Assembly: GCF_965363235.1 (NCBI RefSeq)
Contig: NC_134851.1
Location: 37,414,321-37,478,320 of the forward strand
DNA from: Mytilus galloprovincialis
Taxonomy: Eukaryota > Mollusca > Bivalvia > Mytilida > Mytilidae
Length of the DNA: 64,000 bases
Reading direction: 5' to 3'
Shown one piece after another: positions 4,765-55,682 of the stretch; the stretch's first letter is position 1; each line of letters begins with the position of its first letter. The position numbers were made by a program, and so were the translations under genes. The notes under the pieces are model-generated. The model was given only the letters and a program-made list of their open reading frames with translations, was not told where the DNA came from and ran no database searches.

Positions 4765-5389
4765 TTATTCTGTTTTCTGAGGATTAAAATCTACAAGCCA
4801 TTGTTTTGACCAATCATTTAATGTTTCTAGATCCTTATTTAATCTCCTTTCTATATCTAAAGCATTATTCGAAGAATACATGAGTGAACTATCATCGGCA
4901 AAAAGTCTAACTAAACATTGAATTTCATCTGCTATGTCATTTATAAACATCAGAAATAATAAAGGCCCAAGTACTGAGCCTTGGGGCACACCTGCTTTTG
5001 ATTTTCCAAATGCAGATTCTGAATTTTTTAGAAGTACTTTCTGTCTCCTGTTACTTAAATAATTTTCAATCCAACCCAATAAGTTGCCTTTTATGCCATA
5101 AGTTTTGATTTTTTCTAATAGACCTTTATGCCAAAGTCGGTCAAAAGCCTTCGATATATCACAAAAAATCATACACATAATTTCTTTATCTTCCATAGCT
5201 AAACAAATTCTGTGATAAATCTCAATCATTTGATGAAATGTTGAATGACCAGGAACGAAACCTGACTGGAATTTATACAATAGCTTGTGTTCAAAAATGA
5301 AATTAAAAATATGTTTATAAACTATTCTTTCAAAAACTTTACCCACACAACTTAACAATGCAATAGGACGATAGTTTGAAACCATCGAT
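4765..5389 (-). pseudogene. LINE reverse transcriptase catalytic core fragment
   Basis: The fragment contains RT blocks in the usual order: NYRPIALLS, FQSGFVPGHST, DISKAFDRLWH, the GVPQGSVLGPLLF block and the catalytic LFADDS. It polymerises cDNA at the nicked target in intact elements. It ends in an in-frame stop immediately after NPQKTE; the next fragment continues in the same frame, so this is a nonsense mutation. Confidence 0.9.
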
Positions 5390-6103
5390 TTATCCCCTTT
5401 TTTGAAAAAAAGCTAAAACATTAGCATCTTTCCAGAAACTTGGAAATTTGGAAGTTCTCATTGAACAATTAAATATAAATGATAAAGGTACACACACACT
5501 ATTGGCAGTATATTTCAGCATTTGATGACTAATGCAATCTTCACCGGATGCTTTACCAATTTCCAAAGATTTGAGTATGTCTTTAATCTCATCCTCCGTT
5601 ATTTCATCAATATCTAAGCTATGTTGGGTACGAAGTGGTAAATCTGGAGGTATAACTCCATCATCCGAAGATGTAGAAATATTACAAAAATATGAGTTAA
5701 GCAAATCTGCTTTTTCTTTTTCACCAACAGAAATTTCATTAGTATTTGGATTTAATAACGGAGGAATCGACGTGGAACGACAATTACCCATAACTTTTTT
5801 AACGAGAGACCAGAATGCTTTCGGGTTTTTGTTTGACTTTTCATCTAAAAGACCATTAGCGTTTAAGTAGAACTGTTCCTTTGCATGAATAATCATGTTA
5901 TTTACTTTGTTACGTTGAACTTTAAATTTTTTAGTAATTTGTACAGTTCTCAATTTTCGTAATTTTTGATGAAGTCTATCACGTAGTCTAATCTCTTTTC
6001 GAATTTCCGAGTTAAACCACGGTTTATCTGATGATCGAATAGTGACAGTTTTAGTAGGTATAGAATTTCTAGCAATTTCTATATATTCATCTGTGAAAAA
6101 AAA
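5390..6103 (-). pseudogene. LINE linker and N-terminal reverse transcriptase fragment
   Basis: This frame carries the linker between endonuclease and reverse transcriptase (KPWFNSEI near its start, then a basic stretch) and the first RT block (GKASGEDCIS, followed by FPSFWKDANV). It would read on into the next fragment if one T were removed from the homopolymer in the AFF-coding stretch near 5403-5410. Other LINEs have an intact KKGD...NYRPI junction here, so the break is a frameshift in this copy and not a domain boundary. Confidence 0.85.
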
Positions 6104-7103
6104 TTGCCATACCGTCTATGTCGTCCCCAAAAGCAGTCAAAGTAGTTTGCCAATCAAATTTCTGAATATCATTATTAAATCCAGTAAAATCTGCATGTTT
6201 ATATAACCAAATAGTTCGTGTAAATTTTTTTTCGCTAAAATTCGGAATTCTTAAATATACTTTTGTAGCATTATGGTCACTCATATGTCTATTTATATCA
6301 ATAACTTCAGTAAAGGTAGCACAACAATCTTCAGAAATTAAAATTGGATCTAATAAAGTAGCTCTCCCAGATCTGTGATCAAATCTGGTCGCTTCTTTTA
6401 CAACATTTTGTAAACAAAAGATATTCATTAGATCATTTAAAACATGATTGTGTTCAGTAAATAAGTCAACATTTAAATCACCTGTAATTATAATTTTAGT
6501 TGTATAATTATATGCTTGTTCAATTGAATGTTTAAAATTTTGCCAGAAGGGATGATTTGAACCTGGTGATCGATAAACAGCACAAAGTAAAATTTTGTGT
6601 TGTGGAAAATCAATTTCTAGCCATATAAGTTCACCGTTTTCAAATTCTAAATCGAATCGTCTCTTAGTTTTTAGTATTTCAGATACATAAACCAAAACAC
6701 CCCCGTCAAAACAGTTTCGATCATTTCTATATAATTCCTGATGGTACCCATCCATATGTATATCTTCACTAGAAATATTTTCATCAAGATGACTTTCTGT
6801 GATACAAACTATGGAAGAGCCTAAGGCTAGAGTTTCAATGTATTCAAGTTTTGTTCGGACACTTCTGGCATTCAAATGAAATATCGAAATTTCGTTTTCA
6901 TAGGGGCCGGGGTTTTCAGCTACATCATTACAAAGCAATATCAAAAGTAACATGATAAAGGTAAAACTAATATCTACGCAAAAGTTACAAAAAGCAAACT
7001 TGTAGATATAATCTAAGCTTATTTTAACACTATATAAAACAAATTGAACAAACTGTGAAAACAGCGAAAATGTTTTCACATAATACAACATTTTCTTTTT
7101 CAA
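6087..7103 (-). pseudogene. LINE endonuclease domain with 2A-like leader
   Basis: The 338-codon frame starts with about 58 largely hydrophobic residues, followed by NDVAENPGP (residues 59-67), which resembles the 2A ribosome-skipping motif found in some invertebrate LINEs. The endonuclease follows: FHLNARS near residue 75, the catalytic-type TESHLD near 105, YRSPGS near 173, the GDLNVD motif near 205 and the terminal SDHNAT near 275. These are the conserved blocks of APE-type endonucleases, which nick target DNA to prime reverse transcription. The frame ends early because of an extra T in the run at 6096-6103; the correct frame continues directly into the next fragment. Confidence 0.88.
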
Positions 7104-7130
7104 AACTGAATAACACTTATAATTGTATTC

Positions 7131-7468
7131 TAATGGACTGATTCAGTTTTGTATTCCTCAGTCTTAGCAATATTGAGATGCAACATTTTTAAACTGATCT
7201 AAGTGTGGCCAAGGATTGAAAGAACTGTTTCACGAAGCAAAAAAAAAAAAAAAACAAAAACAAAAAAAAAACAAAAACACAAAAAACACAAAAAAAACAA
7301 AACTGAAAAAAACTTTTATGGATTCCAATTTCGCTTTAAGAAATTCGTGAGGCTGATAAACACGGGTAAGTCAGATGTTGATTTTTTCTAAGAAGATAGA
7401 AGTATGGTAAGTATAAATAGTAGTTGTATAGGAATCAAACATGATCTGATCAATGTCTGATCATTTCC
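7131..7468. other. Spacer with A-rich low-complexity tract
   Basis: No gene is visible. Bases 7240-7312 form an A-rich run interrupted by single C or G bases, giving a Lys-rich but meaningless reading frame. Confidence 0.6.
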
Positions 7469-11687: not shown

Positions 11688-14600
11688 GTAAGTTTCTATA
11701 TTTATACTAATTAGAGGAAACTTTACAATGTCTGAACCATGTGCTAACGGGCTGATATTGTCACCTTGGAATAATATGTAATACACACATAACAATTACA
11801 TGTTACTTGTATCATTAATATGTATCTACAATGTATGTCCATTTGGTTGAGTGTTCTGTAAGCATTTATAAGCACCCATAAGACTCCTGCATTTTGATAA
11901 CTATAATGATATTTATTTTCATATATGTATCAGGATCCACGAAGGAAGGGGGACTTGGTCCTAAATTATAAATTAATAATAATGACGTCTGGCTAGGCTA
12001 TTTTTTTTCTACGTCCCAGAAAATAATAAAATAGCCTTGCCAGACGTCATAATTATTTGGACTAGGGTAGCTGAATTAAAGGCGGCAGCCCTTGAATCCG
12101 CCTATGGCATCGAAATTTCAGATTTGGGGTAAGGATTAGGTTGGGTAGAGGAGCGAGGATTAAATAAAAATTAAACCTGCATTCGTACATGCATACTCTA
12201 TTGAATAATAAAACAGTTCAATACTTTCACATTTTTGAAATAATAGTCTTGTGCACACTAGTTTTAATAAAATTGATATTGAGAATAATAATGTTAAATT
12301 TTTATATTAAATTATTTTGAATATGAAAATCAATATGAAAATCAATTTTTATATTTATACACACTGACAATCGCTGCATAAGGTAGTCCGAGATTACTCT
12401 GACGTCCAACGGCTGTTTTGCCAGACAAGCTGGGGCCGTGGGAGATTACTCTGACGTCCAACGGCTGTTTTGCCAGACAAGCTGGGGCCGTGGGGGCCCC
12501 AGCTTGTCTGGCAAAACAGCCGTTGGACGTCAGAGTATTCTCGGACTATGAATAAGGTTGCAAATAAATAAATTTAAATCATACACAAAAGAACAAGAAT
12601 CATTATTGATGATTATCAGTTATTTCAAGTTATTTCCAGATCATACCAGTCGAATATATATCCATTGAACGAAAACAAAGAAAATTCAATCACTCTTTAT
12701 TGAGAAAGTGAATAATAAAACAGTACCGGTGACGATACTGATCAAATTAAAATTATTTTTAAGTAATAATTGTTCATTTTGTAACAAATATACATGCAAA
12801 TAAACGATGTTTAGTATTGTTCAGTATTTATTCAGATAATTACTTTTAAAACTGAAATTTAAAAGATGTCAATCTTTACAGCAGATTGATAAAAAAAAAT
12901 TGGAAAAAAATAATGTACAAATAAAATCGAGGGACATTCTGAGATGAACAGTGTTTATTGAAAAATGACAAAAAAACCCTTGAGGGTAGGCTATTAGAAG
13001 CTAAAACATTGGATTGGTTCCGCAATAGTAAACACAAGTCGTTGTTTTGGCGTGATACCAAAAAGGGCATGCGAATTCACGTAAACGAAATGGCAACCCG
13101 AGTCGACAATACCACAATGCTAAAAGTCATGTGCATATGCGATATCAATTAAATTTTTGGGGGGAGAAGGGGGGGGGGGGGGGTAATTAAACAACTATAA
13201 ATCTTTCATTTAATTTAACTTTTTTTTTTCTTCATTATTCACCGTCAGCAAATAGTATGAAATAAAACATGGTATGATATAAAACATGCAAACGTTTAAT
13301 TCAGCTTATGATTCATGTACCTTACAATATATTTTTTTTTATAGATATATGCAGTGTTTTTAATTCATATAGTTCTTGGTAAGTATAATTATTTACTGTT
13401 ATTAAATATAGTAATACATTCAAATTCCAAAACATGTCATGAAAAGCAGAAGAAGAGATTTGAAAGGAGCCGTTATCTGGTCCCTTTAAATTTTGAAATA
13501 ATTATCAAGAATTTTGATTTACATGCTTTTATTCATAGCCTCAGACACAGAAGTATACTAGTACGTAAATACAGTTGTGACTGTTAAATAGCTAAAAAGG
13601 TCATTGACACTGTGACTGTTAAATAGTTAAAAAGGTCATTGACACATCGTAGTCCATGGTTTTGTGTTAAAGTTATAGTCTGTTATATGCGATTAAAAAA
13701 CGTTTCTTTAAACGAAAAGTACACACACTGAATTTTTGTCTGACACTGCTACATTTAATTTGATAATATTGCATTTTCGTTTTCGCTGCATTCAATTTGT
13801 TAATTCTAAAATATATTTTAAGAAATTTTTAGATATGCAAAACATTTAATAGATAAAGGATGTTTTGGTTTTGGACTGCACTTGATTAAAAAAAAATCAA
13901 GGACACAAAAATGTCATTCTTTTTTATACGCCCTTTTACTACACATACACATGTATTATGGTATACCGATGTCTGTCTGTCCGTCTGTCCGTCGTCAACA
14001 TCTAGGACAACGTTTTTACCTATTTGTATGAAACTTTGGTTCAATTGTCTAAATAACATAGAGCTATTGTCGTGAGCTCCCTTTTCGATTTTTATAAATT
14101 TTGTACTTTACGTTTCCTTGTCATTAGAAATTTACTGTACATTTTTCTTGTACCAACGGAACATATCATTTTAAGGTTATCCTGCATAAATGCAACCGCG
14201 AAATCGGTTGATGAAAATTTAAAGTGCAGGAATATTATAGGCGATCCCCTCTATCTAGTAAAAAGTAAAATCACAAAAATACTGAACTCAGAGGAAAATC
14301 AAATCAGAAAGTCCCTAAACACATGGCAAAATCAAATGACAAAACACATCAAAAACGAATGGACAACAACTGTCATATTCCTGACTTGGTACAGGCATTT
14401 TCAAATGTAGAAAATGGTGGATTAAATCTGGTTTTATAGCGCTAAACTTCTCACTTTGTTCGACAGTCTCATCAAATTCCGTTATATTTACAATGATGCG
14501 TGAACTAAACAGACATAATAAATAAAATGATCAAAATATGGGTACAGCAGTCATCATCGTAAATAAAGCCACAAAGGCGCGCATAATTTAGGAACTTTTC

Positions 14601-33800: not shown

Positions 33801-33960
33801 AACTATAATTTTCGTTTGATGTGTTTGAGCTTTTGATTTCGCCATTTTATTCGGGAATTTCCGTATTGAATGTCAATTCAGCATTTTTATGCTAATGTAC
33901 ATGTACATCTGGTATGCCAATTTCAGACAGATCAAAAATATTTGTTTTTGATAATAAATA

Positions 33961-34260
33961 GACATGACAGCTGATTTATAACCTCGCGCTGATTCTCATG
34001 AACTGGATAATTTTCTCGATTACAATTTTTGTGTCCACGACCTTGACACCGTCTTTTCAAATGATATAAAACAGATAATTGACTTTCTTAACAGCAAAGT
34101 GACAATTTTCTGACTTATAATGAGCATAATTTCCTTTTTGTAATCTTGTAAACTCTTCGTCAAGATGTAGCAGGTGCTCTTTAATTTTTTTTTATTAAAA
34201 ATCAAAATGTCATCAATATAGCAACAACAAATATTCAGTTCAATTGGTTTATCTTCGTTT
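33961..34260 (-). pseudogene. Decayed Ty3/gypsy-type reverse transcriptase fragment 1
   Basis: Read on the minus strand in two frames, it gives YIDDILIF, then KEHLLHLDEEFTRLQKGNY and CHFAVKKVNYL. YIDD is the RT catalytic box, and the HL-E-F-RL-NY pattern is the thumb start typical of Ty3/gypsy polymerases. A run of A bases causes a frameshift. No LTR, integrase or gag was recognised, so this is a relic. Confidence 0.7.
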
Positions 34261-34409
34261 ATTTTTTGCCGGTGCGACTGCGTCCCAATTTCAAACTAAA
34301 TGCAGCATCCATCACTCTTTCTGTTTCTTTGATGCATGTCTTGATGAAAAATAGATTGAACTGATCGAATAAGGGAATATTGTTTCAGACCTTAATTGTT
34401 CGAAGCCAT

Positions 34410-34735
34410 TAGTTTCAAACAGTGTATATGTTGCATACATGCAAGTTATTTGTGTATGTGCCTGTCCCAAGTCAGGAGCCTGTTATTCAGTGGTTGTCGT
34501 TTGTTAATGTGTTACATATTTGTTTTTTGTTCATTTTTTTTTATACAAATAAGGCCGTTAGTTTTCTCGTTTGGATTGTATTACATTGTCATATCGGGGC
34601 CTTTTATAGCTGACTATGCGGTATGGACTTTGCTCATTGTTGAAGGCCGTACGGTGACCTATAGTTGTTAAGGTCTGTGTCATTTTGGTCTCTTATAGAC
34701 TGTTGTCTCATTGGCAATCATTCCACATCTTCTTT
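34410..34735 (-). repeat. Mussel dispersed repeat A, reversed copy
   Basis: On the minus strand it starts with GTGGAATGATTGCCAATGAG and runs to CAGGCTCCTGACTTGGGACA, the typical second half of the family. A short reversed piece of the same family lies at 32825-32910. Confidence 0.8.
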
Positions 34736-34973
34736 TTTAAAGTTATACTTATATACATGTTATAGTTTGTACCAAAAAATTGTACAAATTATTATTTATA
34801 TATTTTAACTTTCAACAAAATGATAATTTGTCCAAAAAGTGTCTGCACAAACTACAATTTGTATTGAATTTGACTGTAATTCTTTTATAACATGTACATG
34901 TTACAATAATTTATATTATGGATTTGGTTTTGGTTTTGGCTAAAAGCATTGAAACACACTATATCATTTCTAT

Positions 34974-35905: not shown

Positions 35906-37135
35906 TTTTAAAAAGTTTAATATAATTTGTTTGAGCATCAACTTAAAGTACATGAACAGATGATATAAGAACCTTAGCCTCATCTTGGAACATATCTAAT
36001 TCCTCGTCTTTGTCGGAAATGATGTCAGATGGTTTTTTGAGGTCAGATAGTGCATTTTATAACCATTTGCGCTCCATGCCTCTTCATTGTGACGATCTCT
36101 ATTCTTTAGGGCCTTTCGTTGCTGCTCAACAGGTTGTTTTACCTCCTCTTAGTGAGGGAGATTCATCGCTCCGATAAATTCTGTTATCTAAATTTATGAG
36201 GGTGCACGTGATGTATTCAATGTAATACAAATTTAGTTTTGTAAATTAAAAACTCATCCACCTTTATAAATCAGGGACCCTCCTCCCCATCATCCCCCTT
36301 TGTGTCTGGCATTTCAAGGAAAAAACGATGAAGGTTTTTGGTGGCATTTGTTAGGTGGGAGAGGTTGTCATGGTGGCAAGTTTTTTTTTTGGCTAGTTTC
36401 CGGTTGAATAATGCGAATGGACTGATATCTAAATCTATGAAGATGAGTATTTAATTTACAAAACTAAATTTTAATTCTAAAAGATTGATATTAAATCATC
36501 AGAGAGTTCAAAAATTGCCTTCATCTCTGAGCTATTTCCTCCGTTCTTGGAGCACCTGTATCACACAAGGAAAGTCGAGAGTTTGACTCGCACCTTTCGA
36601 AAAATAAAAATAAATACTACAATCTAGCACCTCTGAGAAATGTTTTAATCATCAGTTTTCTAGGTTATCTTCCTTCTTCTTCTCTGAGTTCTTTCCTCCG
36701 TTCTGGGAGCACCTGTGTAACACAGAGACAGAGGCTAATAATTGGGCATTCAAATGACAAACTAATATAAACTAGCAACACAATGCATCAGATGCATCAG
36801 TGAATAAAACAGTTTGAGTTACACGAACCCAAGCTGTGTATCACAATCAACATTTCAAGTAGTCTTCAAGCCTCGCTCGCGCGGTTTTTTTCTAGTTTAT
36901 ATAAGTTTAATTCCAATTTTAAAAAGAGTTCATTTGTATTTCTGTCATTAAAGCTATTGTTTCATTTTTAGTTTATCACAACTTATTAGCATTAATAACT
37001 TGAATTACTGTGTGTTGGTCTGAAGGCGAAACTAGACTAGCTTTCTTACATATGCTCTTATTCATAAATAAAAATTGGATGGGTTTAAGAACTACGTGAC
37101 TTTCGACATGTTGGTTATGAATTTTAAAAAATAGA
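35906..37135. other. Intergenic, no gene seen
   Basis: The only structure noted is a direct repeat of about 45 bp (36525-36570 and 36679-36727) around TTTCCTCCGTTCT and GGAGCACCTGT. The rest is AT-rich without coding signal. Confidence 0.5.
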
Positions 37136-37440
37136 CATAACAACTGTCATATTACCTCGCACTGACGTTTAAGAACTGAATAATTTTCCAAATTACAATT
37201 ATTGTGTTATCAACCTTGACACCATCTTTGGAAATGAAATGACATAGATAAGTGACTTTCAAAAATACAAAGTGCGATTTTCAGTCTTAGGAGTATAATT
37301 TGCCTTTTGTAATCTAGTAAACACTTCGTCAAGATGTTGCATGTGCTCTTTAAATTTTTCATTTAAAATCAAAATATCATCAATATATGCAACTACAAAT
37401 ATTCACTTCATCTGATTTTCGTCGCATTTTTGGCCCGTGT
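37136..37440 (-). pseudogene. Decayed Ty3/gypsy-type reverse transcriptase fragment 2
   Basis: It aligns along its length with 33961-34260 and reads VAYIDDILILNEKFKEHMQ, HLDEVFTRLQKANY and, after a frameshift, ISKDGVKVDN, a typical gypsy RT block. It ends about 100 bp before the first Cys-rich peptide gene and is on the opposite strand. Both fragments lack everything outside the RT palm-thumb area. Confidence 0.75.
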
Positions 37441-37560
37441 AACTGCTCCAAAATTGTAAACAATTTGAAGCATTCATCACTAAATCTGTTTCTTGTATGT
37501 GTTGTGTACAAGTTATCATTTTGTACAAATTATAATTCGTACATCATCTTTTGTTAATAG

Positions 37561-37815
37561 ATGAAGTACAAATTATTATTCGTAATAGTCATCATGGTCC
37601 TGCTTATTTGCCATGTTCCAATAGTACCATTAAAGGCATTGACTTTTATGAATAACTGTAGACTGTGCAATTTACATTATAACAAAATATGTGTTCAACA
37701 ACCATGCTCGCCTGGTGATTCTGGACTACAGAGCTTCGGCAACATAATAGACACAGTGTGTATACAGAAAGGCAGTGACCTTTTCAGCACGTGTGAAAGA
37801 ATTTGTGGACATTGA
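37561..37815 (+). CDS. Secreted Cys-rich peptide, copy 1 (84 aa, 7 mature Cys)
   Basis: The open frame gives a hydrophobic signal peptide (residues 1 to about 26, core LLFVIVIMVLLIC) and a short mature part of about 58 residues. Mature Cys are at 33, 36, 44, 49, 67, 78 and 82; the eighth, present in the paralogue at position 71, is Gly here, leaving an unpaired Cys. The peptide ends ICGH. The start follows TTTTGTTAATAG directly, so an upstream non-coding exon is possible. The family is not one I recognise; antimicrobial or other secreted effector roles are guesses based only on size and Cys content. The upstream pyrimidine tract of copy 2 is missing here, so expression may be impaired. Confidence 0.7.
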   Translation: MKYKLLFVIVIMVLLICHVPIVPLKALTFMNNCRLCNLHYNKICVQQPCSPGDSGLQSFGNIIDTVCIQKGSDLFSTCERICGH

Positions 37816-37887
37816 TTGAGATGTCACAAGTACACCAGAAACTCTGAAAATGACAATGGGATGTATTGTAGATAGTGTTTTATTATG

Positions 37888-37893
37888 AATAAA
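37888..37893 (+). terminator. Poly(A) signal AATAAA of peptide copy 1
   Basis: AATAAA lies 72 bases after the stop codon and is kept in the paralogue at the same distance. Confidence 0.65.
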
Positions 37894-38217
37894 GTTTGAC
37901 TTAGAAAAAGGGCATGCTATTGTTTTTGATTGAACACGTGATAACAAGGATTTTAGAAAGCTATTTTTTTTATATTGTGCCATGACTTCAACATAAATAT
38001 ATGATATAAATACTGTTTGTTTTTATATATTTGTTTATGTTTTGTACATAAAATATTTAATTCATTTATTGACAATTTGTTCTTTATTTACAATGATATT
38101 TAATCTACACCGAACACTTAAGTTTGAGTCGATCCAACATTATACACAATAAAAGAGGGACGAAAGATACCAGAGGGACAGTCAAACTCATAAATTGAAA
38201 ATAAACTGACAAGGCAG

Positions 38218-38457
38218 TTATAATTTGTATTTTGACTGTGTACAAATTGTCTTAATTAATAATACAACTGACAAAAATAATTATACAAATTATAATCTGT
38301 ACTTTAACTGTACACATTGTAATTTGTATGTTGTCCAATACTAGTAAGTGCTTGTACAAATTACAATTTGTTCTTAATTGGACTGTACTTCATTTATAAC
38401 ATGTGCATGTACATTACTTTATATTGTGGATTTGGTTTTGCAAAAAAGCATTGATAC
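38218..38457. repeat. ACAAATTATAATTTGTA palindrome-rich stretch
   Basis: Near-palindromes of the form TACAAATTRYAATTTGTA recur here (38221, 38282, 38315, 38353), before copy 1 (37520) and again at 34780-34870 and 40140-40275. The part from 38353 to 38457 also aligns with 34840-34960. Confidence 0.6.
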
Positions 38458-38682
38458 ACACTCCTGTGGATTCAGTTATTTTCTTGGGTATCAATTTTCG
38501 TGGATTAAGAAAAACATTTTGTGGATATTAAATTCGTGGATTTGTCCATCTCTGCATACAAAGCCTATAGAAAATGTATAATTTGTTAAACATTTAAAAC
38601 ATTTATATTCGTGGTTCATCTGTACCCTAGAAACCCACGAAAATTTGTATCAAACGAATAATAATGAATCTACGGTATATCA
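38458..38682 (+). mobile_element. Short mussel repeat inserted in another repeat
   Basis: CCTGTGGATTCAG to AATCTACGGTA, with GTGGATTAAG and AAACCCACGAAAATTTG inside, interrupts a sequence that is continuous near 34950 (ACACACTATATCATTTCT). The comparison defines its limits to within a few bases. Confidence 0.65.
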
Positions 38683-40929
38683 TTTCTGTTTGATATTTAT
38701 TAAAATAACGCACAATTATACCCCCAATGACATAATATTATACCCATAATGACATACATGAAAACTAAATAGCACATTGCATAATACATGGTACAGTTTA
38801 CCTTATTAACAAAATACAAAAACATAGTTTAATATAATTTGTTTTAGAATGTGATATAATCATGGGATTGGGAATTGCACAACATCATTTGCTTTTTTAC
38901 ATAGTAAACAAGCAATTATTTGAATCAGGAATATTTTTGAATTTAAAATATTGATACGAAATGTATGATGAAAACTAATTTTGCCGCGAATGGCTAGGGT
39001 TCAAGCTACGTCCACTGACATCTTAGTATGAACTACAATGTATTACCAATGTCATTTTAACTGATCGGGCGGAGCTTACGTTTTAATTTGCATAAGGACA
39101 GTCTATTTGAAGATGTGTGTGATAAGGATGATAGCCGTTATAATTATTACTGATTTCTAATCACCTATCAGTGTCATCAAAGGAATTTAAAAACAATGAC
39201 TGGACACTTCATTGATGAGTTTATCCTAAAACACCTATCTATAGATGGACTGGTTTATTGTGAGCGAATCGGTTAAACTCCGCCCAGTCAAGTGAAATAA
39301 ATCGAGTAATAACTAACCTCTTAGCCGTGCATGCTTGGCTAACCCTAATTTTCCAGAATCAAAAAAAGATGTTGTTTTACATTAAAAAGAGCTGCACCTC
39401 CTGTCCCGTTTTGTATTTAAATGAAAGAACCCCATAACCACTAGTTTTATTAAAAACTTTTTAACTGTTTCACGTAGCGAAAGTTGCTCTTTACCCGTTG
39501 CTGTAAATATACATTTGTTTTAACAGCTTCATTTTGAATTCTGGACAAATATCCTGGTAAAATTCCCACAGCTGTTCAATATGATACCAGAACACCTTGG
39601 TGAGCAAATGGATGCGCTTTCATGTGTTATTCTCTGCTATGTTCCGAATTTCGTGGCAAATATATCCTGCTGATCAGCATTACTGGCCACGCATGTTTAC
39701 AGTATATCATAAAATGATTTGAATGCACAAAATTAAGGTTTTCATCAAGGCAATTAAAATGACTATGAATGTTGAAAATATATAAAAGGCCATAATTGTG
39801 TATCGAGATAAATTAATTTATCGCTATTTTGTGCATTTTTTCTTTGATCTGTTTTTGTGAAAAATTTTCATATCATGCTACTCGCTTAAGATGGAAAATT
39901 ATCGCTAGAAACTAAGGACACACGTAGCGTTGCTAGCGAAATTAACATGAAATTGACAACGTCGTCGTCGGTAAAATAGCTATAAACAGATTATCATTGA
40001 TCATCTCAACTCGATTGCATTTCTTGCTTTCGCCGTCCTGGCTCAAGCCAGAAAATCAGTCTCGTTGAGATGATCAATGATAATCTATAAATATTGCTTT
40101 TGAACATCGAGTTATAAGTGAAATTTAGGAGTCAAATATAGTTAAATTTTGAACAAATTGTAATTTATACAAGCATTTTTTTGACAAATTGAAATTTGTA
40201 AATAATCAATATATACGTTATAAATAATTAATAATTAATATAAAAATTATAATTTGTGATTTTATTTTTTTGTACAAATTATCACGATTTTGATTTATAG
40301 CGTCGAAAAAATAAAAAAGCGCGAAAAAATGTTCTAACTGAGACAAAAAAAAAAAACATATCCCCAACCCCAGTTTTGAAGTTTAATGGATGCTCCTTAC
40401 CGAGTAAACTTTAAGAACAGATGTACGTCATTTACCTACCGACTTTTAAGAGTTGTAAACCACAATGTTTGTTTCCTGTTGATATCTATTTTTACAACAA
40501 TCAATGAACCGGTTACACCTAGATATACATGTTGTTATGTCCGGCCACTGTGCTTCTTAATGAACAAGAAAGTGGCGCAAACGTAACATCCATTAATAAA
40601 CAATATAAAAAAGAATAAATTGTACTATGACGTGGTAAAACCTCAAACTTGATTGATTGTTGATGCTAATTTCAGCTATCGGGGTAAAATCTTGGCGTTC
40701 ACTTTATATTGATGGAGGGAAAACAGATGTGCATTGAGGGAATATCAATAAATTTGTTATCAAACTAACCTGCCACGTCAGTGGTTCGAATTTGCACCTT
40801 ATTTGTAAAATAAAAAGTCTAATAAGGGCATCCTGCCATCAAATACACAACATTTGTCCGTGCATTGTATCGAACTGTTACCACGTGAGCTTTAATTGAA
40901 TCGGGCAGTCCGCCGTCAACCATAATGTA
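38683..40929. other. Spacer of the inverted duplication, repeats only
   Basis: No gene is supported. A weak palindromic element spans about 38990-39350 (GGGCGGAGC and GCTCCGCCC-like partners), a hairpin element lies at 39845-40090, and AATTTGTA palindromes lie at 40140-40275. A B-box-like word GGTTCGAATTTGCACC at 40783 has no matching A-box. Confidence 0.55.
39845..40090. mobile_element. Hairpin MITE (GATTATCATTGATCATCTCA)
   Basis: Arms of about 30 bp around GATTATCATTGATCATCTCA (39991-40020 and 40062-40088) flank a second small hairpin, CTGGCTCAAGCCAG. The 5' part carries a GTCGTCGTCG run. It has no coding capacity. Confidence 0.65.
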
Positions 40930-41240
40930 TATAAAAAAGAAGATGTGGTATGATTGCCAATGAGACAACTCTCCACAAGAGACCAAAATGACACAGAAAT
41001 TAACAACTATAGGTCACCGTACAGCCTTTATCAATGAGCAAAGCCCACAACGCATAGTCAGCTATAAAAGGCCCCGAAATGACAATGTAAAACAATTCAA
41101 ACGAGAAAACCAACGGCTTTATTTATTTAAGTTATATGAAGTACTAGAAAGGGGCATATCAAAAGGACATTACAAACTTATCATTGCTCATAAGTATATA
41201 TTAGACAAAGGACAACGCTATGTCAAAAAAGGAAAATGAC
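40930..41240 (+). repeat. Mussel dispersed repeat A copy
   Basis: It begins GATGTGGTATGATTGCCAAT and includes GGTCACCGTACAGCC, AAAGGCCCCGAAATGACAAT and CAATTCAAACGAGAAAACC, a good match to the family. Confidence 0.85.
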
Positions 41241-42044
41241 GAACAGACAAAACAATAGCCTATATAACTCTTTGATCATGGAAAACTAAAGATTGAGCAT
41301 CACGGAAGTGAAATATATAGAAGTCTAGAAATAAATCATCTTCGTACAAATGGTTTTTTGTCTGTTTTGATGTACGTTCTGATCTAATTTTTAGAATTAA
41401 AGAGTTCTACTTTTGAACTTTTATTTTTTTCGGATTAAATGTATTTCATTTCAGCTGTAATGATAAGAATAAGTTATAAAAATCCTCATTCTGTACTTTC
41501 AGTAAAATTTTGTATCATCCCATTTTTCTATTTTTGATAATATGACAATACAGAGATGTAAAGTATGCATAACTGTCAATAAGACAAGTACTAGTATTTA
41601 CCGAAGTCTAGATATCGTACATTTGTAGTTGTAAGAATCTGAAGGTCACAATTCGACCTTTTACAATTAACCTGAACGATATAGCCTGCTAAAAAGGTCT
41701 TCGCATGACAATATATTAAAAGTCTAAACGAAAAAAAAAACACCGGATTTATGCCAAAACAATTAATTAAATATTATAGGTATATATTAGACGTCAAATA
41801 AATAACAAAACAACATTAGCAGAACAAAATGCGGTATCAACGCATGTATGTGTCTCGATATGGAAAGCTAGCTTAAAGTTATGACTCTGGAAAATGAGTG
41901 TTCTCTTATGTTTAATAAGGGTCTCTGGAATTACAATCAAATTGGTCCCTAACCATAAAAAATGTTTTAACGATAACCTTATTTCACTGTAAGTAATGCT
42001 GACGGTTATAATATTGTTAACACCGATTTAATATGTCTGAATAA
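41241..42044. other. No gene seen
   Basis: AT-rich sequence without recognisable repeat family or coding signal. Confidence 0.5.
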
Positions 42045-42310
42045 TTTTTGTTTTAACATCACATGTTACACGTTTCACAAATGATATCGGATATGTTCCT
42101 TACGTCGTAACTACAATCCCCTTCCATTTCATGAATGTGACCTACCGAATGAAACTATTTACCGAATTTGTTATTACATAGTTCATGTAAGCAACACGAC
42201 GGATGCCACATGGGGATTTTTTTTTCATTTTATGCCATGGCGTTGTCAGTTTATTTTCAATTTATGAGTTTGACTGTCCCTCTGGTATCTTTCGTCCCTG
42301 TTTTATTGTG
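42045..42310 (-). repeat. Mussel dispersed repeat C, reversed copy
   Basis: On the minus strand it contains GATACCAGAGGGACAGTC, ACTGACAACGCCATGGC, GTAGGTCACATTCATGAAA and TTGTAGTTACGACGTAAGG in family order. Its first part overlaps the right arm of the inverted duplication. Confidence 0.8.
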
Positions 42311-42560
42311 TATAATGTTGGATCGACTCAAACTTAAGTGTTCGGTGTAGATTAAATATGATTGTTTATTAAGAACAAATTCTTAATAAATGAATTAAAT
42401 AATTTATGTACAAAACATAAACAAATATATAAAAACAAACAGTATTTATATTATATATCTATGTTGAAGTAATGGCACAATATAAAAATATAGCTTTCTA
42501 AAATCCTTGTTATCACGTGTTCAATCAAAAACAATAGCATGCCCTTTTTCTAAGTCAAAC

Positions 42561-42566
42561 TTTATT
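42561..42566 (-). terminator. Poly(A) signal AATAAA of peptide copy 2
   Basis: TTTATT on the plus strand, at the same distance from the stop codon as in copy 1. Confidence 0.65.
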
Positions 42567-42638
42567 CATAATAAAACACTATCTACAATACATCCCATTG
42601 TCATTTTCAGAGTTTCTGGTGTATTTGTGACATCTCAA

Positions 42639-42893
42639 TTAATGTCCACAAATTCTTTCACACGTGCGGAAAAGGTCACTGCATTTCTGCATACACACTG
42701 TGTCTATTATGTTGCCGAAGCTCTGTAGTCCAGACTCACCAGGCGAGCATGGTTGTTGAACACATATTTTGTTATAATGTGAATTGCACAGTCTACAGTT
42801 ATTCATAAAAGTCAATGCCTTTGTTGATACTATTGAAACATTGCAAATAAACAGGACCATGATGACTATTACGAATAATAATTTGTACTTCAT
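42639..42893 (-). CDS. Secreted Cys-rich peptide, copy 2 (84 aa, 8 mature Cys)
   Basis: The product has the same signal peptide and mature layout as copy 1, with the complete pattern C-x2-C-x7-C-x4-C-x17-C-x3-C-x6-C-x3-C (Cys 33, 36, 44, 49, 67, 71, 78, 82), enough for four disulfides. It differs from copy 1 at 10 of 84 residues. Upstream on the minus strand lies a strong pyrimidine tract (CTCTCTTTTTTTC) and TTAATAG, so a splice acceptor just before the start codon is likely and a 5' non-coding exon would lie above 42910. A small secreted effector is likely; antimicrobial activity is possible but unproven. I do not match the spacing to a named mussel peptide family. Confidence 0.78.
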   Translation of the reverse strand: MKYKLLFVIVIMVLFICNVSIVSTKALTFMNNCRLCNSHYNKICVQQPCSPGESGLQSFGNIIDTVCMQKCSDLFRTCERICGH

Positions 42894-43234
42894 CTATTAA
42901 CAAAAGATGAAAAAAAGAGAGTTAAACAGATTTTAAATATAATTTTCAGTAGGTTTGCGTTTGAAAGTAATAAATGTACCTGTAGATATGTAAACTAAAT
43001 ACATGTATATCATATATAGAAATCCAAAATATATAAAAAGTAAATAATTATTGGTCAAAGTACGGCCTTCGACACGGAGCCTTCGCTCACACTGATGCAA
43101 CATGCACATATGATGTTGTATATAGACTGTGACCGTAGTTGTTTGTCTTAATTGTATGCCATGCTTTTGTCCGGCATTTTTTTAGATTTAGGATTTTGTT
43201 AGTTCTTTCACTGTCTTCAAAGCATCTTATCTGC

Positions 43235-43460: not shown

Positions 43461-46074
43461 TTTACAGCGATGTGTTGCTTGGATTTGTATAGGAAAGGGT
43501 TTGTAACGGCATTGCCTTTTTTCCCGTACCTTTGTTTAAATGTACCTTTTATATTTGATATTTGAACAATAAAATATTTTGAATTTAACATCTCTTGTCT
43601 CTTTTATGTATACTTTTACATTTACGTTATTTACTTTAATATATAAACAACTGCTATGATAAATAAAGTTATGCAACGTTTCCATTGAAATAAATTGGGT
43701 TCAAACTTTAAAGGCTCATTTCGTTGTGGGAAATACTTTTAAATAAGACAAATTCATAATAAAATAGTAAAGGGTAAAAAAGAAGCCCTTCTATGTAGCT
43801 AACTTAATTTTGACTTATAATACATATACTGCTACTGTAGTACTTATGGATACAAAAATAATTGCAGATAAACACAATCGCAAATTTAACTTGAATGATA
43901 AATATATATTTTCTTTTACTTCATTTTCAATCATAAGTTGTTTTTCTAAACTTTTTTTAAGTAAAGTATATGTGTTTTCTAATGTACAGGAAAATCTTAA
44001 TTGGTTCAAACAATTTGGCATTGCTACTAACTATCATACAATTCTTAGATTATAAGATATTGAAAACGTACTATTTTCTCATATATATATACTAGACTAG
44101 TATACAATTACTAAACAAATATGCAAACATAATATGTTGCAGAATTTGATATTAACATCCTAAAATTCAAAAGGTAGATTCTAAAATACAGAAAACTTAC
44201 TGTTTGATGTATACAAGATAAATCTATTAAATTTCAATATCAACAACTTTTGTTACATTTTATCCTTATAATGATTGTTGATTTGTTATTTAGTCAATTG
44301 ATACTATTAGATAGGATATTAGTTTCCGACGCTACTTCCCTTGAACGGATTTTGTTTTAACCTAAAATCGGACCATCCCGCCATAAAGTTTTTTTTATTG
44401 CGTCACGTGTACGCAAGCCATTCGTCACAAGTCGACAGATTCCGAAGATTGGTACGTACATGTATACGCAGGCATAATAAAAGGATTTCAAGTGGATAAA
44501 ACGTATGATCGATTCTTAGAATTATCTTAAAAAACGGATATGACTATATTTCTAATTATGAGCATCAATGTAATAATTATAAATTAGATTAGAGAAAATA
44601 ATGTTATTAAGGCAATCTTTATAATAAAGGAAATATATTTCCGACGTCTCTTCCTATAAACGGACTTATAATGTATGAATGTGAGAGATCGACCATAATT
44701 AAATGATAAATTGGATTTTAATGAAATCCTGAGTGCGGTTTAAAATCGTTGTGCTTCATATAAAAACTTTGACAAAAATATATTTTTATACCATTTCTAC
44801 GTCCTGAGTTGCAATCTGTGAACAATTGTGAGATCTAAAAATAAGAAGATGTCGTATGATTACGAATGTAGAATCTACACAACAAAAATTCAAATGTAGT
44901 GGATTTAATAAGCAATCATAGGCCTTCGGTCCGTGTAACACTTATCAATTCAAAGTTTTAAAAAGTTTTGAAATTTTGAATTTTTGGAATTTTGATCAAA
45001 GTTTTAAAATATCAAAATTTCAAATTGTGTAAAAGTTTTGAAATTTTGAAATTTTAACCAAATTATTAGAATATTAAAATTCTAAATATCGTTTATAAAT
45101 TTGATAGATTAGGAATTTTATCAAAATTTTAAAATACTAAACCTTACGTGCAATTTTGATTATTTCACTTTTTGAAAGTTTGATTTTTTAAATTTTTGAT
45201 TAAAATATCAAAATAGAAAAGGGGCAAAAAGAGGGGTACCTGTAAAAGCGAAACGAAATAAAATCTGAACGAAACGGAACAAATGAATTGAAAACATATT
45301 GATACTTAAAAGTTAATGTACGAAATAAAACCACAGACAGACAGTTGTAAGCGGTGAAAACTTGGATGATAAAATAAATATTTCTCAAAAGAAGAGAATT
45401 CATTTCAAAACAAGACGTACGGCTCTGATATTGGCCATTTTTCTTGCTGATTTTTCTAGCACCCATATTTTAGGAGAAACAGGAGTAACAGTAAAAACTG
45501 AACAACTCGCAGTAGGTCAAATAGTATGGTTAGGTTGAGCATGTTTATATATTTTCTACTCAACTCTACGCAATAAAAAGGCTCAATACACGGTGTATTA
45601 TCTCTTTTGATTTCAAATTTTTCTGTTTTGCTCTGCGACTTCTTACTTTCTGCAATCATGTTGGCTAAAGAATATATCATTCCATGTACATTATGAACGA
45701 TCATTTTTAACGTTTAAATCTGTTCTTTGTAAGTTGTTGGCCCTAAATATTCAGCTTTGCGCGTTCCCTATGAAGTCGATCCAGAAATGCGCTTCGGCCG
45801 TAATTTTTAACGTTATATTTTCATTTTTTATCGATTGTATGACGATCATAATTATATTGCCTTGCATCAATGATTTTAGGTAATATTTTTTTGGTACGGT
45901 AGGAATACTGAATGCATGGTGTCCCAATTAAGGTTGTCCCAATTAAGGTTGTACTTGTCAACAATGTGGGAGGTTTTTGAAATATATATATATCTTATAG
46001 ACGATGAAATTAGGAGTACTAAGATCAAATATTAGTAGATTGGAGCCAAGATACTGTTACAAGGTATCTACATA

Positions 46075-49175: not shown

Positions 49176-49440
49176 GAAAGATGTGGTATGAGTGCCAATG
49201 AGACATCCAAGTCACAATTTATAAAAGTAAACCATTGTATTAGGTTAATGTACGGTCTTCAACACGGAACAGCAAGCTATAAAGGGCCCCAAAATACTAA
49301 TGTAAAACCATTCAAACGGGAAAACAAACGGTCTAACCTATATGTAAAAAAAAAAAACGAGAAACAAGAAATACTGACGAACCACATCACCAAACGACAA
49401 CTACTGAACATCAGATTCCTGACTTGGGACCTTGGACCTA
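49176..49440 (+). repeat. Mussel dispersed repeat A copy
   Basis: It begins AAAGATGTGGTATGAGTGCC and includes AAAGGGCCCCAAAATACTA and CAAACGACAACTACTGAAC. A second, shorter copy lies at 49585-49680. Confidence 0.8.
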
Positions 49441-50850
49441 GTATGTTACTAAATAAAAGTAATTTTAAGTTTTGTTTTATTTTACTGATGAACAAAAAAT
49501 CGATTATAATACCAATAAAAACAATATAAAAAGATGTAAATAATGACAGTGTTGAATTGGCAACCTTTTATATAACTTATTTAAAGGATGCTGTATGGTT
49601 GCCAATGAGACAACACCTAACACTTGCAAGTGATCAAAATGACACAGAAATTAACAACTAAAGGCTCTGTACGGAATTACAATAAAGAACGAACTATATT
49701 TTAACTTCGTACTTTATTTGGCCTTTTTCACTTTTTTGAATTTCAGCGTCACCGATGAGTCTTTTTTAAACGTCTTGTGTAAATACAGAATTTAAATCTG
49801 ATATCTATGATGAGTTTATTATAATATGTAAAAGTCAGTTGGAAAAGACTTTACTCATCAGATGAATACAAATAATACATCTAACAAAAAAGAGTTAAAT
49901 ACAATGACCCTGTGCAATTGGTAAACCCTTGAATCGTCAGTGTAGTACAGTACATGTGCTTATATTTAGTCAAGTTTTAATTTACTGTCTGATAATACAA
50001 TCAGTATATATACCAATAAAACAATATTCAATGATCTAATTACAATGTTGTACCGGTCATCTTTAAAAACGAGTTTACCCGCATTGTAGACTAATTTACG
50101 CCTTTTCAACATCCTCACCGCAAACATAAGGATGTGCTATTCTGTTTAAAATATTTTTTTCTGCAAATATAAATAAACTTTCATTTCAAATTTTAAATTT
50201 TTTTATTCAATTCAATTCAAAGTTTTATTCAATTCACTTCAATTCAATTCAATTAAAGTTTAATTGAATTGAATTTTAATTCAATTCAATTCCTAAGACA
50301 AGCTCTACTGAACTTTCAAATCGACTGAATAACAAAATGCATACAGTCACATATTTTAAAATATACTGCACTCGTTCTATTTGAGCAGTCAAAATGCGTT
50401 GACCGTATATTTTTATGTCATATACAGTCAATAACATGATATCACTTTTCCTTATGAATATTTAAATAGAAATTGCCGAAATCATAATTAATTACAATAC
50501 GACCTATTCAACCTGTTCTTGTTTTCAATGTAAACAACGATGCGTTTAACGATTCAAACTTATTTCTTTTGCAAATGCTATAAAAAAAAAGATGTTTCAC
50601 TTGTTGATATGTTTGGTCTGCAAACTATAAATCATTATGTTTTATGCTTATTGTTGATATTTTGGCTTATTCTGCAACAAATTCGTTCACCATCGATGTA
50701 CATTTCATCGTGTTGTATATTTCTCCGCCTGCATGATATGAGGCCTTTTTATAAAAGAGGGAACTTTCCCAATATTTAAATCAAATGATAGCATTAACAC
50801 ATTAAACAACAATTAAAAATGTTTTTATTAGATTTCAGTATAATACAAAA
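49441..50850. other. Non-coding, with TTCAA tandem hairpin
   Basis: No gene is seen. Bases 50205-50295 are built of TTCAATTCAA units that switch to the complement (TTGAATTGAA), giving a perfect hairpin around TTAAAGTTTAA. Confidence 0.6.
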
Positions 50851-52872: not shown

Positions 52873-54966
52873 TTATTTTGGTGACTCGTTTTCTGCTACT
52901 GCACACTTTGTTAGACGGAATACCAATATGTTCTTTTTGTCCTTGACCACCATCTTGTGATGGCTTTGGGTAAGCAACATTTTATCTCCTTTCGGACTTA
53001 GACACAGTTTACATGGCCATTGGAGGCAACTATCTTGTACTACGACTCCATCATACCTCCCATCTTTACCGTTTAGTTGGATGATGGTTTTATGATCAAA
53101 GACAGCGACAAGAATTTTATTTCCACAGAAAGCAATACCACGTGGTAATCTTATTTCCTCGTGCGTAAATGTCCATAGCTTTAGGCCAGTAATGTTCATG
53201 CAAATAATAGAACGATTTGGATACCCATCACGTGATACTACGATGCGTTCTGCGGTGCTATCTAAAGCAACAAATTTCAAATTGGTGACGTTAACATTTA
53301 TCGATGCATCACGAACCCATGAACTACCCTGTCGCTGAAAAATGTAAACATTGGAGGTAGAACAAACGGCCATTTTTCTGTTGCTGAACGAAATTGAATG
53401 ACATCTTTCATTAACAGTTAAAACCTCGCCGGCTGTGATCTTTTTATTTTTCATATCGATTCGCTCGTGTTTTACACGTGACATTTCGGGAAGACAAACG
53501 AGAACTTCTTTTTCCGATAAAACAGTTAAATCGCCTGGGGCAACCGAAAATCTTGTAAAAGCTAGGAAGTTATACTTTTCATCAAATAGTTTCAAACATT
53601 TATTTGATGAATCTGTTAAGACGATATGACCTGAAGCAAGCATAGCTGCGCCCTCTATCGAACATTCGTATTCTTTATCAACTGCAACGTTAAAATCCCG
53701 AAGGAAACGAGCTGTTACCATAGTGTCTCGCTCCCGAGTGGTGATAGTCCCTTGTTCTTTAACTTTTGGCTCTTCTAAACGTAATGTTAGAACTGGTTCC
53801 TCTTCATCAGAATCCGCTTTTGCGTGTGTCCCGACGGAAGCAACGGAAACAGATTTCATCGGAGAAACACGAGCGACTTCAATTCCTGGTTGAATAGATT
53901 GAGATCGTGCAGTTGATGCTGCACTGGTTTCTGACAGCTCATGGCTTTCCTTGATGGCATCCAGCTTTAATGAGAGTTTATCATCACGTGGTGTTCCCTT
54001 TGTCAAAGGCTTAGCTAATTTACCTCTTACCCTCTCAACAGACAGTGATCCAATACTTTCAGCTTCGTGAAATGCTTTCTCGATTTCTCTGTTTGCCAAA
54101 TATTTTATTTTTAAATCGGTCAAGTTTTGCGAAACATGTTCGAATTTCTCTTGCCTTTCCTCATACGACTTGATCTGATCGTTGTATTTCTCTACAAATT
54201 TGATTGGATTTTTTTCATCTGTCTTACTCATGTCTGTAATGGCGTCCCTCGCTTTCTGTATGATCTGATGGCAAATATTAATTTCAAGTTGTACACTTCC
54301 TAATTCTTTATTCTTAACCTCTGCAATAGCATCTAAAACTTTTGTTTCCATTTGAGAAAAGAAATCGTTTACCTGTTTCTTCATTTCGGTAATTTCTTGT
54401 TTGATTTCGTCTTCTTTACTTTCGATCAATTCAACTTGATCTTGACGGTTGTTTAAAATTTTCTCAGTTTCAGATATCTGAATTGATAGGTCATTCGTCA
54501 AAACGGATACATTTTCCCGCCTTTTTCTTACAGCATCAGCAATCGGATGGATCTTTCTGCACGAATTATGCGACTGGTTAGAGCAAAGTGAACAAGCAAA
54601 TACTTCGTGATCCTCACAAAAGAATTCTACTTCATGATCCAAATGCCTTGGACATTGCAATGGTGACCTATTCTCTACTTCATTCAAAGCGGTCAGAATG
54701 TTTGACAATGCCTCGTTCGTTGGAAGCATAGAAGACCAGTCTTCTGGTTTTTGTCCAGCGAATTCCGACAGACTTGTCTGTTTCTGACATGTTGGACATT
54801 CGAATCCCTTTGCTTTGATCTCAGTTTTGTTCTTTTCGACAATATGGTCACTGATACACTGCTTACAAAAAGAATGCAAGCAAACTAACGTCTTAGGATC
54901 GTCAAAATTGTTTTTACATAATGGACATATCAAGTATTCCTTTGCAGCTTTTAAAGCAGTAGCCAT
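52873..54966 (-). CDS. TRIM-type RING/B-box E3 ubiquitin ligase, single coding exon (697 aa)
   Basis: The protein starts with a C3HC4 RING finger (Cys14, 17, 29, His31, Cys34, 37, 57, 60), which recruits the E2 enzyme. A B-box follows at about 105-140 (CPRH, C117, CSLC, HNSC, H140), then a long Glu/Lys-rich coiled coil at about 145-310 that would dimerise the protein. A Ser-rich linker runs from about 315 to 410. The last 280 residues show repeated strand-like blocks (GHIVLTDSSNKCLKLFDEK, IAFCGNKILVAVFD), consistent with the beta-propeller of TRIM2/3/56-like proteins; that part is inferred. The coding region has no intron; a likely acceptor (TATTTATAG) lies 11 bases before ATG, so a 5' UTR intron is probable. 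Bivalves have large TRIM families, often tied to stress or antiviral responses. The exact orthologue is unknown. Confidence 0.92.
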   Translation of the reverse strand: MATALKAAKEYLICPLCKNNFDDPKTLVCLHSFCKQCISDHIVEKNKTEIKAKGFECPTCQKQTSLSEFAGQKPEDWSSMLPTNEALSNILTALNEVENRSPLQCPRHLDHEVEFFCEDHEVFACSLCSNQSHNSCRKIHPIADAVRKRRENVSVLTNDLSIQISETEKILNNRQDQVELIESKEDEIKQEITEMKKQVNDFFSQMETKVLDAIAEVKNKELGSVQLEINICHQIIQKARDAITDMSKTDEKNPIKFVEKYNDQIKSYEERQEKFEHVSQNLTDLKIKYLANREIEKAFHEAESIGSLSVERVRGKLAKPLTKGTPRDDKLSLKLDAIKESHELSETSAASTARSQSIQPGIEVARVSPMKSVSVASVGTHAKADSDEEEPVLTLRLEEPKVKEQGTITTRERDTMVTARFLRDFNVAVDKEYECSIEGAAMLASGHIVLTDSSNKCLKLFDEKYNFLAFTRFSVAPGDLTVLSEKEVLVCLPEMSRVKHERIDMKNKKITAGEVLTVNERCHSISFSNRKMAVCSTSNVYIFQRQGSSWVRDASINVNVTNLKFVALDSTAERIVVSRDGYPNRSIICMNITGLKLWTFTHEEIRLPRGIAFCGNKILVAVFDHKTIIQLNGKDGRYDGVVVQDSCLQWPCKLCLSPKGDKMLLTQSHHKMVVKDKKNILVFRLTKCAVAENESPK

Positions 54967-54976
54967 TACAAAATAT

Positions 54977-54985
54977 CCTATAAAT
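54977..54985 (-). promoter_or_regulatory. Likely splice acceptor before the TRIM start codon
   Basis: On the minus strand ACTTTATTTATAG is followed by GATATTTTGTA and the ATG. The pyrimidine-rich tract and AG suit a 3' splice site of a 5' UTR intron; the upstream exon was not found. Confidence 0.45.
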
Positions 54986-55682
54986 AAAGTAATACAAAAT
55001 TAGTATATAGACAAAGTAAAATAAGAAAATTCGATTGGTATGAAATGCCTCATCATGACAAATATACAACAATTTAACTGAGAAAACATGGCAATGTTTA
55101 TAATACAAAATATACAAAAAATTAATATACCAGGCATGAACCAACAACAACCGCTAATCTTTAGGTTCTTGACCGGCACGATAAGAATGTGGCGGGATTA
55201 AACATATGTGTGAGCGCTCAATCCTGCCCTAACAAGGGACAGTGATGTAACTCAACAATATAAGAAAACAATCTATAAAATCGGGTGAAAAAGGCTCTAT
55301 TACTGATCAGACCGATACAACACAGAAAAAAACCAACACAATTCACAGACGGGACGTGGCAGGGTATCCCTAAGATTAAGACAGATACTAGGCAAAAAAG
55401 AAACGTAACATTGGTTTTTAATTTGAAAATATCACATATTAATTTCAAATATTTTCATGATTAAAACAAGTATCCTGAATGATTTATCTATCAAATTTAC
55501 TCATTTATGAAAATATTGGAAATGACATGACGTCATTTTCTGATGTCAACCAAATAACCCTTTTTTCAAAAATTTACCTGTATAGAGTTGGAATCGAGTT
55601 GTCTTTTTTGTCATTAATTATGTCGAACACGATTGTTAACAAAAGGTAGCATTAAAAAATTGAAAAATTTACACGTAAAACA
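54986..55682. other. Upstream of TRIM, with repeat A 3' part
   Basis: Bases 55150-55380 carry late modules of repeat A (GAATGTGGCGGGATTAAAC, GGACAGTGATGTAACTC, GGGACGTGGCAGGGTATCC). The rest shows nothing I can name; TRIM 5' UTR exons may lie here or beyond. Confidence 0.55.

Follow-up and report, generated by a model that had tools for sequence, protein, structure and literature searches.

A cysteine-rich, putatively secreted peptide family of Mytilus galloprovincialis, apparently undescribed, and a probable drifting, inverted duplicate of one of its genes

The analyzed stretch of DNA, referred to as the window, comprises 64,000 nucleotides of the Mytilus galloprovincialis genome (NC_134851.1, here C14:37414321-37478320) and harbors two similar reading frames of 84 codons, designated copy A and copy B, both located on that contig. 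A preliminary description, made from the sequence alone, had interpreted them as an inverted pair of genes encoding secreted, cysteine-rich peptides that evolve rapidly as effectors. Both reading frames and their inverted placement, with copy A on the plus and copy B on the minus strand, were recovered, and their appearance as genes for secreted cysteine-rich peptides was upheld, paralogues being present in the same genome. Adaptive evolution of the pair is not supported. Copy B is probably a gene of a small secreted peptide family, and copy A an inverted, clipped copy of it that drifts near-neutrally.

The inverted pair

The features constituting the pair are as follows:

37561-37815, plus strand: copy A, apparently derived duplicate reading frame, 84 codons, Gly at residue 71, seven mature cysteines
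42639-42893, minus strand: copy B, coding part of the apparently sound gene, 84 codons, eight mature cysteines
42894-42922, minus strand: putative 3' splice acceptor of copy B, AG abutting the ATG
37544-38215, plus strand: duplicated block, copy A side, beginning 17 bases 5' of the ATG and ending within a dispersed repeat
42240-42910, minus strand: duplicated block, copy B side, inverted, 96% identical to the copy A side
37816-37963, plus strand: 3' stretch of 148 bases with a single difference between the copies

Copy B begins with an N-terminal hydrophobic, signal-like stretch (signal peptide approximately residues 1-26, judged by eye), and its coding exon lies directly behind a good acceptor sequence. 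In both copies, an AATAAA motif is located 73 bases 3' of the stop codon. An origin of copy A by retroposition was rejected, because the block contains sequence past the AATAAA motif as well as intron-like bases before the ATG. The inverted orientation of the copies, 4-5 kb apart on a single contig, makes an assembly haplotig unlikely.

Upstream of copy B, a 68-codon reading frame with a hydrophobic C-terminal end occupies the same strand (43815-44021, minus strand); it showed no Pfam match. Between the copies, an imperfect inverted repeat (39981-40093) was observed, featuring 54-base arms that are 80% complementary and 5 bases apart.

Paralogues, cysteine frame and predicted fold

The preliminary description had proposed a search for paralogues in mussel genomes. 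Whole-genome searches covered 1.385 Gb in 331 contigs, with only the best candidates being scored. At the default threshold, only copies A and B were retrieved. A search with copy B admitting E values up to 10 yielded eight rows, namely the pair itself and six weak matches, two of which (E 0.09 and 1.3) were located within 4 kb at 31.42 Mb of C14, hence 6 Mb from the pair on its own chromosome. Within 200 kb read at this position, three gene-like exons and one fragment were identified, all on the minus strand:

L037:9048-9290, minus strand: gene-like exon of the cluster (C14, 31.42 Mb)
L038:2974-3204, minus strand: gene-like exon of the cluster (C14, 31.42 Mb)
L039:72-275, minus strand: gene-like exon of the cluster (C14, 31.42 Mb)
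L038:2437-2622, minus strand: family fragment beside the L038 gene, a truncated piece

The cluster members match one another (best E 4.7e-6 for L037/L039, 8.7e-9 for L039/L038 and 2.6e-5 for L038/L037). Used as queries, they recovered the window pair weakly, once at E 0.2 and once as copy B alone at E 0.9, and not at all in the third search, and a profile comparison of cluster against pair using hhalign gave a probability of 95.8% (E 6.8e-9). Judged from these sequence comparisons, copies A and B have real paralogues in the same genome. No further convincing locus appeared among the best candidates scored with L037 (as L023), L039 and L038. Altogether, six family loci were found, a count leaving out the remaining weak rows on C4, C7, C13 and C11. 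Weak matches on C2, C3 and C6 (L024, L025, L026 and L028, translated in the frame of the match) and on C12 and C5 (L049 and L050) showed no family array and were discarded.

In all five members, an AG directly precedes the coding exon, with acceptor pyrimidine fractions of 0.75-0.88 in four members and 0.67 in copy A. For L037 and L038, the codon immediately following an in-frame TAG was taken as the exon start; for L039, the start was set at the AG aligning with that of L038. In copies A and B, the exon opens with an ATG, unlike in the cluster genes L037, L038 and L039, which feature a donor-like ATG|GTAAGT site 1167, 447 and 1862 bases upstream, respectively; on its minus strand, the 200 kb region holds these three and one more such site. 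Missing initial ATG and upstream donor-like site together suggest that the start codon of the cluster genes probably ends a first exon at ATG|GTAAGT.

The cysteine gaps are 2,7,4,17,3,6,3 in copy B, 2,7,4,15,3,6,3 in L037 and 2,7,4,6,3,6,3 in L039. Outside the C4-C5 loop of 6, 15 or 17 residues, they are thus identical in all three eight-cysteine members, which share this spacing at only 20-36% identity. The full array C-x2-C-x7-C-x4-C-x(6-17)-C-x3-C-x6-C-x3-C is complete in these three, with Asn after the second cysteine and an exon following an acceptor; L038 is devoid of C4 and C5, and copy A of C6. The pattern with a 17-residue loop given in the preliminary description therefore holds for copy B and fails for copy A, which has Gly at 71. 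Invariant in all five members are C33, C36, N37, N41, C44, P48, C78 and C82. The net charge of the mature part (start set by eye) amounts to +1 for copy B, +7 for L037, -1 for L039 and 0 for both L038 and copy A, so that the family is not uniformly cationic.

The mature part of copy B was modeled in two AlphaFold runs (2 and 5 sequences; first residue Met instead of Leu). Both models consist of two helices, the first spanning residues 2-20 and the second 34-56 or 31-56, at a mean predicted local distance difference test (pLDDT) score of 74.9 and 77.4 and a predicted template modeling score of 0.53. Moreover, the cysteine positions of the two halves mirror each other (sums 63, 62, 63 and 64; chance 0.009 with the ends fixed, in a test devised post hoc). 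This mirroring suggests nested disulfides C1-C8, C2-C7, C3-C6 and C4-C5, and the joint loss of C4 and C5 in L038 fits one of them. The chances are evenly balanced that the family possesses a scaffold of its own, a two-helix hairpin with four nested disulfides, in which the loop (6-17 residues) and the charge (-1 to +7) vary on a fixed frame and one member drops a whole disulfide.

Alpha-hairpinins and twin-CX9C/CHCH proteins consist of two antiparallel helices with nested disulfides, each helix bearing one motif, C-x3-C in both or C-x9-C in both. The family would resemble them in antiparallel helices and nested disulfides, as far as models and mirrored spacing indicate, whereas its halves read C-x2-C-x7-C-x4-C and C-x3-C-x6-C-x3-C, which sets it apart by the general description of those scaffolds; no sequence match was found in Pfam or PDB. 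The CS-alpha-beta fold comprises one helix and two beta strands. Two helices and no strand appear in both models, at a mean pLDDT of only 75-77.

Searches of Pfam, NCBIfam, PDB sequences and a protein collection gave no match above the cut-off, and absence from the collection is weak evidence because it may contain few mussels. Taken as chance matches were Pfam 4HB_MCP_1 (E 0.78), a PDB chain (E 1.3), NCBIfam FtsL (E 0.086), the NrdR zinc ribbon of Pfam for L037 (E 0.0095; 16.3 bits, with the cut-off at 27.2), Pfam Nodulin-like for L039 (E 0.11) and eight PDB sequences (E 0.5-1.7). In the open-access literature searched, no recognized description of the eight-cysteine family was encountered; family sequence words had no match, and the spacing string matched only texts on a plant transcription-factor family. 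Within these databases and this literature, the preliminary statement that the family is undescribed was supported. By its sequences, it apparently represents a new, undescribed family of secreted cysteine-rich peptides.

Secreted cysteine-rich families of mussels featuring clusters, pseudogenes and missing-cysteine variants are already known (PMC7168163, PMC7356231 and PMC10138031). Mytilins, pseudomytilins and myticins are likewise small secreted mussel peptides with eight cysteines, and the myticins likewise show gene duplication, pseudogenes and variants minus a cysteine pair, the pseudomyticins (PMC7356231). The mytilin array C-X3-C-X3-C-X4-C-X11-C-X-C-X-C-X2-C is linked C1-C5, C2-C6, C3-C7 and C4-C8 (PMC7168163), whereas the gaps of the present family are 2,7,4,(6-17),3,6,3, a C-x-C element is missing and the links are predicted to be nested. 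The CRP-I peptides of Mytilus are also secreted and cysteine-rich, and their genes cluster, interspersed with pseudogenes, chiefly on one chromosome and have a short 5' untranslated region (UTR) exon; CRP-I members are six-cysteine, knottin-like peptides with the array C(X3-6)C(X1-7)CC(X3-4)C(X3-5)C, including an adjacent CC, and comprise about 50 genes and pseudogenes with the mature peptide in the fourth exon (PMC10138031). Unlike these, the present family has eight cysteines, one main coding exon and six loci found, and an adjacent CC is absent from the mature part of all five members. The cysteine-rich repertoire of mussels was suggested to be larger than described (PMC10138031). To it, the family would add a cysteine frame matching no family searched, and its sequences can now be used for transcriptome searches.

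Divergence of the copies and origin of copy A

The duplicated block shows 27 differences over 672 columns. As the preliminary description had listed, the coding part contains 11 differences in 252 bases, all of them replacements (codons 15, 18, 20, 23, 24 with two, 38, 53, 68, 71 and 76), and the 148 bases of 37816-37963 contain a single one, at 37830. Furthermore, the copies differ by a silent stop-codon change (TGA/TAA) at 37814. The contrast drawn earlier, 4.4% coding divergence against 0.7% beside it, did not persist, because that comparison stopped at the end of the quiet UTR stretch: positions 37961-38215 hold 14 differences (one being a single-base gap), the first of which, at 37964, directly adjoins the end of the quiet 148 bases. 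Coding part plus stop (12/255) against the rest of the block (15/417) gave a Fisher P of 0.54, and the coding part (11/252) gave P = 0.68 against the distal part (14/255) and P = 0.06 against the near UTR (1/145). The quietness of the UTR was consequently rejected as evidence: a difference-free run of 133 bases has a chance of 0.06 under uniform placement, some 145-base window with at most one difference occurs in 22% of uniform throws, and the adjoining stretch has diverged as strongly as the coding part. A truncated duplicate can thus mimic adaptive evolution when the comparison ends at a quiet UTR.

Under 12 mutation models, 11 replacements out of 11 have a neutral P of 0.022-0.068, and at least 11 out of 12, with the silent stop change included, a P of 0.09-0.23. 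The earlier view that the quiet UTR strengthens this count was not upheld. The 11:0 count is mildly unusual, and positive selection is not demonstrated by it. Codons 1-26, which make up the signal-peptide part, hold six of the 11 replacements. At 11/201 sites, replacements are about 1.5 times as frequent as noncoding differences, without reaching significance (P 0.29).

Repeats at the block boundaries bear on which copy is the source:

42071-42313 (approximate limits), strand not assigned: dispersed high-copy repeat downstream of copy B, running past the block end
37125-37494, strand not assigned: left half of the degenerate repeat housing copy A, 78% identical to 33952-34329
38275-38462: right half of the degenerate repeat, matching 34774-34960

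The distal end of the block lies within the high-copy repeat (1717 first-look candidates, 40 scored). All 18 repeat copies compared, which were the best matches to copy A, cease to resemble copy A where the block ends (query 163-167; the junction is at 166) but stay similar to copy B beyond its junction at 181, as far as query 199-202; ten of them match copy B in an additional piece farther out, up to query 265-354. Since the repeat continues in copy B and is cut in copy A (38215), copy B appears to retain its original surroundings and copy A to have been cut. Copy A lies between the two halves of the degenerate repeat, another copy of which occupies 33952-34960.

The acceptor of copy B has a pyrimidine fraction of 0.88, the top score among 128 AG-ATG sites in the window, of which one reaches 0.79, and is accompanied by a branch-like TTAAC with its A at 29 nucleotides from the exon. 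For copy A, the fraction is 0.67 (0.66 is reached by 12 of the 128 sites), the only branch-like match lies 4 nucleotides from the exon, and both the branch-like site of copy B and the upstream part of its pyrimidine tract are missing. Cys71 is present in copy B, L037, L039 and L038 and absent only from copy A; its presence in the four other aligned members indicates loss in copy A. Outgroup polarization of the differences worked for Cys71 only, the remaining sequence being too diverged. Copy B looks like a sound gene and copy A like a derived, clipped, drifting copy. One criterion of the CRP-I authors, absence of at least one cysteine from the mature peptide, would make copy A a pseudogene (PMC10138031).

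Within the cluster, the L038 gene and the fragment beside it share 90 bases at 93%. Over 29 codons, five silent and one replacement change were counted (chance of that many silent changes 0.004); a 30th codon, past the end of the 90-base alignment, would give five silent and three replacement changes (P 0.006) and was dropped. The 5' part of the fragment is unrelated to the L038 gene and resembles, by eye, a frame at window positions 14057-14410. In this one small comparison, the family appears constrained along the L038 branch, and the A/B pair unconstrained or selected. Further paralogues with a ratio of nonsynonymous to synonymous rates (dN/dS) at or below 1 had been named in the preliminary description as speaking against rapid evolution; the L038 pair is such a case, over only 29 codons of a fragment.

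Competing explanations and further features of the window

Copy B would encode a secreted peptide, given its exon behind an acceptor, the signal-like stretch and eight cysteines with a variable middle loop, and this peptide may fold as two antiparallel helices joined by C1-C8, C2-C7, C3-C6 and C4-C5. On an unchanged frame, the loop would differ from member to member, as would the surface charge (net -1 to +7), a pattern to be expected if the secreted peptides serve binding, defence or signaling. Approximately 670 bases around the exon of copy B would have been copied and inverted 4-5 kb away, giving copy A; the upstream sequence, with the branch-like site and whatever first exon and promoter there may be, would have stayed behind. 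Copy A would then have drifted and lost Cys71, leaving Cys44 unpaired. Replacement-only differences would arise in 2-7% of near-neutral decay cases, and positive selection is not required.

Several observations weigh against this explanation. All copies are known here from genome sequence alone. The upstream exon of copy B was not found, no ATG|GT(A/G)(A/T)G site being present in 8 kb. The 18 repeat loci are a non-random sample, namely the best matches to copy A out of 40 scored rows and 1717 candidates. The reading frame of copy A is still open with zero silent changes at approximately 51 silent sites, for which P is 0.013 at the rate of adjacent unique noncoding sequence (12/147, 8.2%) and 0.10-0.17 at the other two silent rates tried. 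Moreover, the A/B ratio of 11:0 contrasts with 1:5 in the L038 pair (Fisher P = 0.001, or about 0.005 by hand arithmetic with 3:5), so that something differs between the pairs, either relaxation or selection. Finally, confidence in the AlphaFold models is medium, and the spacing had been seen before the mirror test was devised.

A working effector pair under positive selection would have had its replacements fixed to alter binding, as reported for myticins and CRP-I. The replacement-only count, the P of 0.013 for silent changes at the highest silent rate tried and the replacement rate of about 1.5 times the noncoding one, not significant as it is, are in line with such a pair, as is positive selection reported in two mussel peptide families (PMC7356231, PMC10138031). 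It is nevertheless unlikely: coding and noncoding parts of the duplicate have diverged to the same degree, copy A has lost a framework cysteine through one of the changes and moreover is devoid of the branch-like site and upstream surroundings of copy B, and six of the 11 changes affect the signal part, whereas in CRP-I the signal peptide is described as conserved and the mature part as variable (PMC10138031). The interpretation as a rapidly, adaptively evolving effector pair was accordingly not sustained.

Alternatively, neither reading frame might function as a gene, in which case the pair, and possibly the cluster too, would be remnants of a decaying family. This would agree with loci known from the genome only, with the absence of a donor site for a first exon in the 8 kb upstream of copy B and with a cluster that includes a truncated piece and a member devoid of C4 and C5. 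This appears quite improbable, as three members keep eight cysteines in the same spacing at 20-36% identity, which drift would not preserve, acceptors are pyrimidine-rich and silent changes prevail in the L038 pair (5 against 1, P 0.004). Copy A might also have become a new gene using a promoter at its landing site, with seven mature cysteines and perhaps dimerizing via the free one; its intact 84 codons and retained AATAAA motif fit this, and a new promoter is compatible with everything measured. A stop-free frame after about 11 substitutions is, however, expected by chance in approximately 60% of cases (hand arithmetic, stop fractions), the acceptor is weakened and the copy sits among repeat remnants, which makes a new gene highly improbable.

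Elsewhere in the window, a TRIM-like protein is encoded at 52873-54999 (minus strand) by an uninterrupted open frame of 708 residues with RING, B-box and NHL matches. Pieces resembling a retrotransposon of the type lacking long terminal repeats are located at 3854-7142 (minus strand), where the frame 4765-5412 matches reverse transcriptase (PF00078, E 4.7e-34). Furthermore, a dispersed repeat at 40924-41130 has full or partial copies at approximately 2822, 17763, 23900, 32826, 34541, 49275-49664 and 61841.

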